From an uncultured bacterium (GTDB lineage Bacteria > Actinomycetota > Actinomycetes > S36-B12 > CAIKAW01): a stretch of DNA of 63,563 nt. A program made the position numbers and the translations under genes. Below the pieces are notes generated by a model. The model did not search any database. It saw only the letters and a program-made list of their open reading frames with translations, and was not told the DNA's origin. Of the stretch, positions 6,511-10,616 are shown one piece after another (position 1 is the first letter of the stretch; the number at the start of each line of letters is the position of its first letter). Location of the stretch: positions 1 through 63,563 of the forward strand of contig CAIKAW010000010.1 in the NCBI GenBank assembly GCA_903825575.1, given 5' to 3'.

Positions 6511-7737
6511 ATGAACACTCGTGCGCTGAGCCAGTTGCTTGTGTCACCCGGCCCGACCGGGGTCCAAGCCTTGCTTGCGGCCCTCCCTAGCGCCCTCTCA
6601 GGCGAGGGCGCCGCCATCGCACCCGCTGAGGTGGGAGTCCCCGAACAAGTCAGGACCGGATGGAATACGGCGGTCCGTGCCGATGACCGCAAGGCGCCGC
6701 TTGAATCCGATGCCGCGGCGGTGGTGCTCACGACCAGCGGATCTACCGGCACCCCAATCGGAGTGCTGCTGTCGGCTGCTGCCCTGCGTGCAGCTGCCGA
6801 CTCGGCTCACGATCGCTTAGCTGGGCCTGGGCATTGGCTAGTGGCATTGCCGGTGACCTCGGTAGGCGGACTCATGACGATCGTCCGTGCGCTCGTGTCT
6901 GAAACACGGCCGGTGATTTGGCCGGGAGTAGGTGGCGCCGAAACCTTTACGCCCGAGTCGTTCCTAGCTTCAGCAGAATTGACGCTCGCTCAAGCCGGCA
7001 CGGAACCTGCCTACGTTTCGCTGGTGCCAACGCAGTTGCAGCGCATCGTCAGCAGTGGAGGTCCGGCGCTAGCGGCCTTGGCGCGGTTTAGTGCGGTGCT
7101 GGTGGGGGCCGCAGATTTGCCATCGCAGACCCGGAACCCGGCAGTGGCCGCCGGCGTCAATGTGGTGCGCACCTACGGCATGACTGAAACGTGTGGTGGC
7201 TTTTGCTACGAAGGGCGGCCACTAGGCAACATGGGCCTTGAAATTGTGGAGGAAGATACGCACGGCGTTGGGCGCGTTGTCGTCTCCGGCTCCGCCTTGG
7301 CTTTGGGCTACCGACTCCAACCGGACCTGACCGCAACTCGCTTCACATCAACTGGCTTGTGGACCGAAGACTTAGGTCGGCTAGTCGATGGACGCTTGAC
7401 GATTGTTGGCCGCCTCGACGAAATGGTGAAGGTGGGCGGAGTTTCGGTTGCGTTGCCCGCAGTTGCCGCGGTGCTGCGAGCCCACGTCGGTATTAGCGAC
7501 GCCGTTGCGGTTGCTCGCCCTGATCCGGAATGGGGCGTCCGCGTCGTAGCAGTAGTCGTTACTTCGAACTCTGACGTTGAGGGAGTCGAAGATTTGTTAC
7601 CGCAATTGCAACGCGTTGTAGGCGATCGACTGGGCCGACTAGCGGCACCGGTAGCAGTGCGCGTAGTACCAGAGATTCCGTTGCTACCTAACGGAAAACC
7701 AGACCGAGTCGCCTTGGCTGCTCTGGTCGAACGATGA
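6511..7737 (+). CDS. menE: o-Succinylbenzoate-CoA ligase MenE
   Basis: Acyl-CoA synthetase of the ANL superfamily (408 residues, the compact actinobacterial form) activating o-succinylbenzoate with ATP and CoA. Motifs: AMP/phosphate loop TTSGSTGTPIGVLLS, the YGMTETCGG block, LWTEDLGRLVDGRLTIVGRLDEMVKVGG and the C-terminal LLPNGKPDRVAL containing the adenylation lysine. The ATG at 6511 has no Shine-Dalgarno. The 3' end overlaps menA by 4 bp (ATGA). No menB (naphthoate synthase) is in this window. Confidence 0.93.
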   Translation: MNTRALSQLLVSPGPTGVQALLAALPSALSGEGAAIAPAEVGVPEQVRTGWNTAVRADDRKAPLESDAAAVVLTTSGSTGTPIGVLLSAAALRAAADSAHDRLAGPGHWLVALPVTSVGGLMTIVRALVSETRPVIWPGVGGAETFTPESFLASAELTLAQAGTEPAYVSLVPTQLQRIVSSGGPALAALARFSAVLVGAADLPSQTRNPAVAAGVNVVRTYGMTETCGGFCYEGRPLGNMGLEIVEEDTHGVGRVVVSGSALALGYRLQPDLTATRFTSTGLWTEDLGRLVDGRLTIVGRLDEMVKVGGVSVALPAVAAVLRAHVGISDAVAVARPDPEWGVRVVAVVVTSNSDVEGVEDLLPQLQRVVGDRLGRLAAPVAVRVVPEIPLLPNGKPDRVALAALVER

Positions 7738-9467
7738 CCGCACTGGGCCTTTGGCTCGCCGGCGCTCGACCAAGGACGCTTCCTGCCGCCGTCGCACCGG
7801 TAGCAGTGGGCACAGGCGTTGCTGCATACGAAAGCTCAATGCTTGTCGGTCGTGCCGGACTTGCGCTGGTTGTTGCTCTCTCATTGCAGGTAGGCGTCAA
7901 CTACGCCAACGACTACAGCGACGGGATCCGCGGCACCGACAATGAGCGGGTCGGACCGATTCGACTTGTAGGCCAGCAGTTGGCCAGCCCGCGCGCAGTC
8001 AAGTCGGCGGCGCTGCTCTCGTTTGCTGTCGCGGCAGTGGCGGGATTGGCGCTTGTAGTTCTCACTGGGGCTTGGTGGCTCCTTGCGGTTGGCGCTGCTT
8101 GCATCGCCGCCGCCTGGTTATACACCGGAGGGTCGCGCCCGTACGGCTATGCCGGATTCGGCGAAGTCTTCGTGTTCGTGTTTTTCGGATTGGTCGCGAG
8201 TGCCGGCACGACGTTCGTGCAGACCGGAACCGCACCTCGCATGTCGTGGCTGGCGGCGACCGCGGTGGGTTTGCCAATCGTTGCGATTCTTGTCGCCAAC
8301 AACTTGCGCGACATTCCAGGCGACACCGAATCGGGCAAGAAGACGCTGGCTGTTCGTCTGGGCGATCACCGCACTCGCATCCTTTACGAAGTTCTCATTG
8401 CCCTCACGTGCCTGCTAACGCTTCTGATTGCCGGGCTCGGTCCGCGTAAGGCCGTCGTTGCTTTGCTTGCATTGGTGGGACTGGTGCCCGCGCTACGAAC
8501 CTTGCGCTCCGGGGCGACCGGCCGGGACCTGATTCCGGTGCTGGCTGGAACCGGTCGATTCGTGCTGGTGTTTGGTCTGCTCTTAGGGCTGGGGCTCAGT
8601 TGGGGCACTTGGATTGCCGGGCCGCGACCGCGACCGAGCAGTTCCGGTATCCTTGGTATCTCGATCGTGGCGCGGGTAAACACCTTGAGCGAACAAGGCG
8701 GAACGTGCGGGGGTACCCCAATGCCGGTGAGGCTTCCGCGGCTGACCCGGCCGCTGCACATTGATTCCATCATCAGTTGCCCGTCGGGCCTTGAGACCGG
8801 CGCCAGCGACATCCTGATTCGTCGGAACGCAAGAACCACCAAGTTGTTGGACGGTTTCAGCGCCGCTCTGGCGGTTGCTGATGCACCACGAACTGCAGGC
8901 GCCTGCTTGGCGATGCTCCCAAACGTCTGGCCATTTGTGGCACTTATCCAAGGGCGGCAGTTCCGCCTAGCCATGCCGTTGAATGGCTGCGGCGGGCCGC
9001 AAACGAGTGCGACTGCTGCTTTTGCTGCGGTATTTCAACTCGCGCACCAAGAGCCCACACCCACCAATGGCGTGAGCGCAGTCAATTCGGCTAGACCTTG
9101 TGGAGTTGCCGATGTGACCGCGATGGTCGCCACTGACCTGACTGTTCGCGTAGTCAACACATCCGCGACAGCGTGTTCGATCAGCGGGAGTCCTGCTGTG
9201 GGATTAAAAGTGGCCAAGACCGAACGCGACATCCCCGGGTGGACCACCTATGTGCTGCAACCCGGACAGGGCATCGTCCAGCAGAACTACGTCAGGCCCG
9301 ACCAAACAGCCTGCACTCAACCGATCCCCACTGGTACGGGCGGCACGCCCACTTGGACAGTCAACGTCGGTGGCGTCACCTTGCATCCAACCGGATCTGC
9401 CCAACAAATCCGTCAGGTCGAAGGTTGTGCCGTTGTTGTCGCACAGGCAAGTAGTTCTTGGCGATGA
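7734..9467 (+). CDS. menA: MenA prenyltransferase fused to a Cys-containing, DUF4232-like C-terminal region
   Basis: The first ~292 residues are 1,4-dihydroxy-2-naphthoate polyprenyltransferase: a UbiA-family membrane protein with the two Asp motifs NYANDYSDGIRGTD and NNLRDIPGDTESGKKTLAVRLG and about nine hydrophobic helices. The frame then continues with no stop for about 285 more residues (577 in all; the family is normally ~290). After a Pro/Ser/Gly-rich linker there are a region with paired cysteines (SIISCPSG, AGACLAML, NGCGGP) and a DUF4232-like block (RPCGVAD, NTSATACSISGSPAVGLK, EGCAVVV). The extension has no signal peptide; a nine-helix MenA with its N-terminus inside would put it outside the membrane. 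Internal starts at GTG 8667 or ATG 8721 could make it a separate protein. MenA is certain, the extension's role unknown. Confidence 0.88.
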   Translation: MTALGLWLAGARPRTLPAAVAPVAVGTGVAAYESSMLVGRAGLALVVALSLQVGVNYANDYSDGIRGTDNERVGPIRLVGQQLASPRAVKSAALLSFAVAAVAGLALVVLTGAWWLLAVGAACIAAAWLYTGGSRPYGYAGFGEVFVFVFFGLVASAGTTFVQTGTAPRMSWLAATAVGLPIVAILVANNLRDIPGDTESGKKTLAVRLGDHRTRILYEVLIALTCLLTLLIAGLGPRKAVVALLALVGLVPALRTLRSGATGRDLIPVLAGTGRFVLVFGLLLGLGLSWGTWIAGPRPRPSSSGILGISIVARVNTLSEQGGTCGGTPMPVRLPRLTRPLHIDSIISCPSGLETGASDILIRRNARTTKLLDGFSAALAVADAPRTAGACLAMLPNVWPFVALIQGRQFRLAMPLNGCGGPQTSATAAFAAVFQLAHQEPTPTNGVSAVNSARPCGVADVTAMVATDLTVRVVNTSATACSISGSPAVGLKVAKTERDIPGWTTYVLQPGQGIVQQNYVRPDQTACTQPIPTGTGGTPTWTVNVGGVTLHPTGSAQQIRQVEGCAVVVAQASSSWR

Positions 9468-9871
9468 ACCGCCGCGGCAAGTTTGGGGCGTCCTTCCTGC
9501 TAAGCGTCTTGGCTCTGGCCGCGTGTTCACAGCACCAGAGCACCGCACTTGGTTCCGACGGACTGCACCACTGCAAGATTACCGACCCGTCGGCAAATGA
9601 ATCGGGTGCCTCGTGGGCGGATGTCCTGCACTGGGACGGCCGTCAATACATCGGCACCGAAACAAACATCGCGCCGGACAAACTTGGCGCGGTTATCGGA
9701 GCCATCACCTGCGAAGTCAGCACTTCAGGACTTGGCGCTAACTACCAATTACAAAACGGTGATGGCACAATCCCAGCGGGCTCAAAGATCTACGCAATCC
9801 TTGGCGTGCCAATCACGCAAGATGTGGCCGCAACCCGGCTCGGTGAGACCGTCAGGTACCGAGCGGGTTAG
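9464..9871 (+). CDS. Small lipoprotein coupled to the menA fusion gene
   Basis: Predicted 135-residue lipoprotein of unknown function. The N-terminus has basic residues (MNRRGKFG), a hydrophobic stretch and the lipobox LAAC, with the lipidated Cys near residue 20. The mature part has two further cysteines (HHCKIT, AITCEV), a W-x-GRQYIGTE segment and NGDGTIPAGSKIY, resembling a family of actinobacterial secreted proteins with a W...DGDAT pattern. The ATG at 9464 overlaps the menA stop (ATGA), so translation is probably coupled. A TTG two codons earlier is less likely. It ends 5 bp from the convergent PPOX gene. Confidence 0.75.
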   Translation: MNRRGKFGASFLLSVLALAACSQHQSTALGSDGLHHCKITDPSANESGASWADVLHWDGRQYIGTETNIAPDKLGAVIGAITCEVSTSGLGANYQLQNGDGTIPAGSKIYAILGVPITQDVAATRLGETVRYRAG

Positions 9872-9876
9872 TGCGT

Positions 9877-10263
9877 TTAAACCGTGCGACGTTCAACCCC
9901 AAGAAAACGCTTGTCTGCATCTTGGTTGACAGACCAACTCCAGATCACTTCTGGCGTGATCCGGATCTGCAATCCGCCATCGTGTTCCTCAATCAATGCT
10001 GAACCGCGAACTTTTACCCCACGCGGGCTCCACGGATTCGTGGTCACGAGTTCGTCGATAACAATTGTGGCGCGAGGATTGTTGCGAAGGTTCCCGTAGC
10101 GAACCGTCTTGGTGATGTCGTACCCACCGCTGACGATGGTGTCGGCGTCTAAGCCGAAAGTTACGGCGGCCACATCAGGCTCACCGGTAGCAGAGGCCGT
10201 GGCCAAGCGAGCCAATCGCTGCGACTTCAGGAAGGCAACTTCGGCGTCGGTGAAAACCCCCAT
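9877..10263 (-). CDS. PPOX-class, probably F420-dependent oxidoreductase
   Basis: 128-residue split-barrel flavin/deazaflavin oxidoreductase. The opening (FLKSQRLARLATASATGEPDVAAVTFGLD), the TKTVRYGNLRNNPRATIVIDEL block and KVRGSALIEEH are typical of the PPOX-class F420-dependent family; substrate unknown. The ATG at 10263 has AAAGGGA five nt upstream. It is the last gene of the heme/cytochrome c unit, 26 bp after the DUF4229 gene. A classical PNP oxidase is unlikely because the FMN-type C-terminus is absent. Confidence 0.8.
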   Translation of the reverse strand: MGVFTDAEVAFLKSQRLARLATASATGEPDVAAVTFGLDADTIVSGGYDITKTVRYGNLRNNPRATIVIDELVTTNPWSPRGVKVRGSALIEEHDGGLQIRITPEVIWSWSVNQDADKRFLGVERRTV

Positions 10264-10289: not shown

Positions 10290-10616
10290 CTACTCGTCGT
10301 CCTCGGACGCAGCGGCATCGTCGATCTTCTTGTTGAGACGATCGGCAATAGAAACAATACCCGCCGAAATTGAACCGCGCTGTTTGGACAAAAGCGGAAC
10401 GGCAGCAATCCCGGAAATCACAAACGCGAGTGCGAGCAAGAGCCAACCGCGGGCTCCAAGTGCGTAGCAAATCCCGGCAGCGACGATCAGCAACCCGAGT
10501 CGAGCCAAGGTGTACCAAAGTGGTGCGAGCCGAGGGTCATGAACTACGGCCCTATAAGAAGCCACAGGAACTGCTGGAGCCTCAGACTCAACCGGCTCAG
10601 GCATCGCTTCGCTCAT
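10290..10616 (-). CDS. DUF4229-type membrane protein
   Basis: 108-residue protein with two membrane helices (WYTLARLGLLIVAAGICYAL and WLLLALAFVISGIAAVPLL) followed by LSKQRGSIS and an acidic tail (SEDDE), the layout of the actinobacterial DUF4229 family. Function unknown. The ATG at 10616 overlaps the ccsB stop by 4 bp, so it is coupled to cytochrome c maturation genes; a role in that membrane process is inference from position. Confidence 0.78.
   Translation of the reverse strand: MSEAMPEPVESEAPAVPVASYRAVVHDPRLAPLWYTLARLGLLIVAAGICYALGARGWLLLALAFVISGIAAVPLLSKQRGSISAGIVSIADRLNKKIDDAAASEDDE

Follow-up and report, generated by a model that had tools for sequence, protein, structure and literature searches.

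The window, i.e., the whole stretch of 63,563 nucleotides that was analyzed, belongs to a draft actinobacterial genome (108 contigs, 95.4% complete) and contains on its forward strand an open frame of 577 residues (positions 7734-9467, stop codon at 9465-9467) in which a menA gene runs on into a long additional coding region. Residues 1-293 (7734-8612) correspond to MenA, the 1,4-dihydroxy-2-naphthoate polyprenyltransferase, with nine predicted membrane helices, after which the frame continues for 284 residues without a stop. A preliminary description of this DNA had reported about 285 in-frame residues past the MenA end and this holds, the family match ending at residue 289. The fusion is known from this one genome, in its assembled form.

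Upstream, a menE-like gene containing AMP-binding enzyme domains (6511-7737, plus strand) overlaps the menA start in an ATGA. Downstream, the start of a 135-residue predicted lipoprotein (9464-9871, plus strand), with a lipobox-like LAAC recognized by eye, overlaps the fusion stop in the same manner. It is followed on the minus strand by a pyridoxamine 5'-phosphate oxidase (PPOX)-like gene (9877-10263; PF01243 above its cut-off) and by a DUF4229 gene (10290-10616; PF14012), which is the usual downstream neighbor of menA in the order.

The MenA part and its surroundings

Judging from its sequence, the first part of the frame is a whole and ordinary MenA with predicted enzyme activity. It matches NF004751 over residues 4-289 with 368.6 bits (cut-off, 264) and TIGR00751 with 270.1 bits (cut-off, 102.15), which places it in the MenA family, and it contains both motif regions, NDYSD (residue 59) and NNLRDIPGD (residue 189). 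These regions fall within the 45 invariant columns of a 61-sequence alignment that includes the window, a figure which proves nothing alone, as any column lost in the window is omitted from the count. AlphaFold2 modeling of the full chain gave 265 residues with a pLDDT of at least 90, the tail being mostly below 50, and nine long helices in the MenA part, the last one at residues 263-294. The top Foldseek matches of the model are UbiA enzymes (UBIAD1 8djk_B, TMt 0.79; 4od4_A, 0.75), and the MenA part is modeled with the nine membrane helices of the UbiA fold. Because it is the sole frame of its genome above the TIGR00751 cut-off, the fusion must serve for MenA if the cell makes menaquinone.

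The usual arrangement in the order is menE, menA and then, on the opposite strand, DUF4229, ccsB and resB. Among 32 order loci, several of which are cut by contig ends, a menE match lies directly upstream of menA in 31, a minus-strand DUF4229 is no more than 250 bp away from the menA match in 18 (the DUF4229 match is on the plus strand in some) and ccsB lies downstream on the minus strand in 24. These genes also border menA on both sides in the window. The fusion shares with actinobacterial MenA (NF004751/TIGR00751) the full family match, the motif regions, the nine helices and the adjoining menE, and differs in its 284 extra residues after residue 293, the 118 distinct relatives described below extending at most 17 residues past residue 289.

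From the codon of residue 289 to the DUF4229 stop, the window measures 1.69 kb, which comprises the tail, the 135-residue lipoprotein and the PPOX-like gene. None of these three parts has a match in 112 menA neighborhoods (32 from the order and 80 from named genomes; tblastn, E 1e-4). Because all three are absent there, sequence comparison indicates that the segment was either gained between menA and DUF4229 in this genome or lost in the others. The lipoprotein has no Pfam match and no relative in the 165 other genomes of the order. As known synteny surrounds the added segment on both sides, a gross chimera is argued against.

MenA ends in relatives

The ends of MenA were compared in an order-level sample, in which 55 of 60 genomes (own genome counted) yielded a MenA, and in a second collection that added 80 loci from named genomes. 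For the count of stop positions, loci up to L150 were taken, minus nine, and identical frames were counted once, which gave 118 distinct menA frames. The nine left out are the genome's own copies (L001, L004, L034 and L118), its other UbiA loci (L002 and L003), and L035, L116 and L117. In 117 of the 118 frames, the stop lies between 3 residues before and 17 residues after residue 289; the remaining frame (L073) has an early stop and looks broken. In window numbering, 53 of the 118 relatives have their stop at residue 292 or 293, and TGA serves as the menA stop in 74. Reading of the codons shows that the window has a TGG, coding for Trp293, at this frequent stop position (8610-8612, plus strand).

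Long frames were surveyed in genomes of the phylum, where at least 171 of 396 genomes gave a MenA match at E ≤1e-30. Among the matches listed, 32 had stop-to-stop frames of at least 450 residues and 11 had frames of 405-449 residues; all of the former and 8 of the latter were examined, and in 39 of these 40 loci the tail does not exceed 39 residues. In the remaining one (L185), homology ends at residue 218 and the frame extends 180 residues beyond the usual end, which looks, from the sequence, like a late frameshift in menA. The fusion architecture was found in none of the relatives examined (118 distinct frames and 40 long-frame loci), in keeping with the earlier statement that no MenA of this form was known to have been described, and searches of order, class and phylum genomes did not return a second example that would point to selection for it. 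The comparison also revealed that a contig binned as Bifidobacterium breve (L048) and a bin of Candidatus Nanopelagicales (L043) have nearly identical MenA proteins; the label of the former is probably wrong.

The available parts of the literature on MenA fusions, UbiA topology and structure, and UbiA domain fusion mention no MenA with an extracytoplasmic domain. UbiA-superfamily fusions as such are already known, since ORF15 of Citrobacter youngae, according to the accessible portion of its report (PMC11127046), also has a UbiA-family membrane domain and another domain in one chain. In contrast to the fusion described here, its partner domain is N-terminal and its UbiA part is not a MenA but a synthase of the polyprenyl phosphoribosyl type.

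Composition of the tail

The tail contains eight cysteine residues (325, 349, 391, 419, 456, 481, 527 and 565), and not seven as first counted. No CxxC motif is found among them, and a thioredoxin-like role was dropped on this ground. The tail had no match in plasmid, phage and viral collections, no paralogue in its own genome (E up to 10) and no match in a sequence search against solved structures. Two class-wide matches, L116 and L117 (E ~0.001), were attributed to chance after inspection of their alignments and frames. Structure prediction of the region gave low confidence both within the fusion and alone (mean pLDDT 34.8).

Two parts can be distinguished. Part 1 (residues about 293-450; 8613-9083, plus strand) consists of a linker and then a region containing the first four cysteines (325, 349, 391 and 419). 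It has no Pfam match (E up to 5) and no homologue in 166 genomes of the order, 394 of the class and 396 of the phylum, the own genome being included in each. Its codon usage is typical of 44 genes of the window, 224 of 499 gene windows scoring at or below its value.

Part 2 (residues ~451-577; 9084-9464, plus strand), with cysteines 456, 481, 527 and 565, is a divergent DUF4232-like region. The DUF4232 family has a four-cysteine pattern; for part 2, the cysteines were compared with those of its relative L035, described below. The end block had been called DUF4232-like from the outset, and a resemblance to PF14016 was indeed found over residues 451-577 (E 0.0018). At 18.9 bits, this match remains below the curated cut-off of 27 and does not make part 2 a member of the family. 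The match covers the first half of the model, and the tail differs from DUF4232 in being joined behind a membrane enzyme with neither a signal peptide nor a lipobox of its own. In the same genome, the DUF4232 search returned the fusion locus and two weaker loci, all below the cut-off; a literature search returned no paper on DUF4232.

The one good relative of part 2 is L035, a 278-residue predicted lipoprotein encoded in another genome of the order (G062). The two are 39% identical over 114 residues (E 1.4e-17 in G062) and have all four cysteines in common; L035 is itself below the DUF4232 cut-off (E 0.0041, 17.7 bits). Unlike the fusion, L035 has its own lipoprotein-type signal (by eye), lacks tail part 1 and bears another C-terminal part, and its locus gave no menA match. 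A profile built from part 2 and L035 gained two more genomes, which were rejected as they matched only through this other C-terminal part.

Joint, topology and interpretation

At the joint, no signal peptide was seen by eye in the three forward frames, in agreement with the preliminary description. The first common in-frame starts after the MenA part, GTG at 8667 and TTG at 8685, are not followed by a hydrophobic stretch that can be discerned by eye, and a separate gene starting within the tail was rejected for lack of a signal peptide after them. The tail thus has no start codon of its own combined with a signal peptide, and does not qualify as an independent secreted protein or lipoprotein. 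Two reverse-strand frames (8384-8974 and 8583-8951) were attributed to chance on visual inspection. A short hydrophobic run occurs in the linker (residues ~306-314) with no start codon before it; as a guess, it may be the remnant of an old signal. A direct repeat of 21 nucleotides, 81% alike, links positions 8426-8446 and 8612-8632, its second copy starting at the joint; a duplication scar was considered, but the resemblance may be fortuitous.

These features bear on whether a base error or a misjoin at 8600-8700 could hide the menA stop, the tail being then a separate gene or the joint a product of the assembler. Such an artefact is considered unlikely, albeit not negligible. In its favor, the assembly is a draft of 108 contigs, the TGG at the usual stop position is one base off TGA, the MenA of relatives ends at this very place and menA of L185 provides an apparent case of late frameshift. 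Against it, no frame at the joint offers a signal peptide or a good start for a secreted gene, so that a single missed stop would strand an exported-type domain without a way out. One missed stop joining two complete genes was rejected on this basis: it fits poorly because the second gene would lack any signal for export, and for the same reason this reading would also need a loss of sequence, real or artificial, at the joint. Furthermore, synteny on both flanks matches that of relatives, and codon usage is gene-like straight after the MenA part (34 codons, 8601-8708), although this sample is small. As for the split arrangement envisaged in the preliminary description, i.e., a menA stop followed by a separate secreted gene, relatives do stop at this place, but no separate homologue of the whole tail was found in the genomes searched.

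A neutral read-through, in which the menA stop was lost recently and the tail, made but idle, is the decaying remnant of a neighboring gene, is regarded as improbable. Codon usage in part 2 is lower than in every one of 569 equally long gene windows, which suggests a foreign origin or weak constraint, and this reading also draws on the lack of a homologue of part 1 in the searches made and of the fusion in the relatives examined. By contrast, the tail has remained free of stops over 284 codons, part 2 keeps all its four cysteines, the total number of cysteines is even and the frame overlaps the next gene in an ATGA. In a simulation using Markov sequences of the tail's dinucleotide make-up, 288 codons stayed open in 29 of 20,000 cases; these odds, together with the homology of the last part to a predicted lipoprotein, argue that the tail is more than chance.

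The tail is probably displayed outside the cell, because nine helices are modeled and UbiA enzymes end outside. According to the available part of one structural report (PMC4106721), the C-terminus of AfUbiA was assigned to the extracellular side, in line with E. coli UbiA. For M. tuberculosis MenA, seven helices were predicted by TMHMM, while archaeal crystal structures have nine, as stated in the accessible part of a further study (PMC6461227). In the MenA part of the fusion, the inside loops contain eight Lys/Arg residues and the outside loops none. The nine helices and outward C-terminus initially proposed are consistent with the model, the family topology and these charges; an outside location of the whole tail is less secure, as a stretch at residues 387-405 resembles a membrane helix. 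With a KD value of 1.58 and an octanol value of -5.75, this stretch is within the range of the accepted MenA helices. It could be a tenth helix, which would leave part 1 outside and return the DUF4232-like domain to the cytoplasm, but this is very improbable: the stretch includes one of the four part 1 cysteines as well as an asparagine and two prolines, and the kinship of part 2 with a predicted lipoprotein assigns the domain to the outside. The active-site motif regions are located on the predicted cytoplasm-facing side, which makes a direct catalytic role of the tail unlikely.

The best explanation, with a probability of about 0.6, is that the sole menA of this genome is a genuine gene fusion in which MenA acts as an anchor exporting the DUF4232-like tail. 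A segment of ~1.69 kb would have come between menA and DUF4229, and the menA stop at ~292-293 would have been lost, allowing a single protein of ~59 kDa to be made. Helix 9, exiting outward, would take over the task of a signal peptide and carry the cysteine-bearing tail outside, while the synthesis of demethylmenaquinone by MenA would continue through its cytoplasm-facing active site. The tail would most likely be a tethered, disulfide-stabilized binding or structural module, which perhaps acts together with the co-encoded lipoprotein. A sensing role is conceivable. Little credence is given to the more elaborate idea that MenA is a surface receptor or anchor whose outside disulfide-bonded module, by binding either a ligand or the co-encoded lipoprotein, would regulate the synthesis or placement of menaquinone.

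If the joint is confirmed, this fusion would clearly illustrate how a core membrane enzyme can acquire a domain of the exported type when its stop codon is lost, with the last MenA helix replacing the signal peptide. A natural handle on the topology of MenA would also be gained, as well as a MenA whose outside part is open to labeling or binding.

As a separate observation, the MenA of several relatives (L120, L123, L124, L129 and L093) has an in-frame insertion of ~40-60 residues in the first loop (window residues 33-37). This insertion is predicted to lie outside and would represent a second site of growth on the outer face of MenA.
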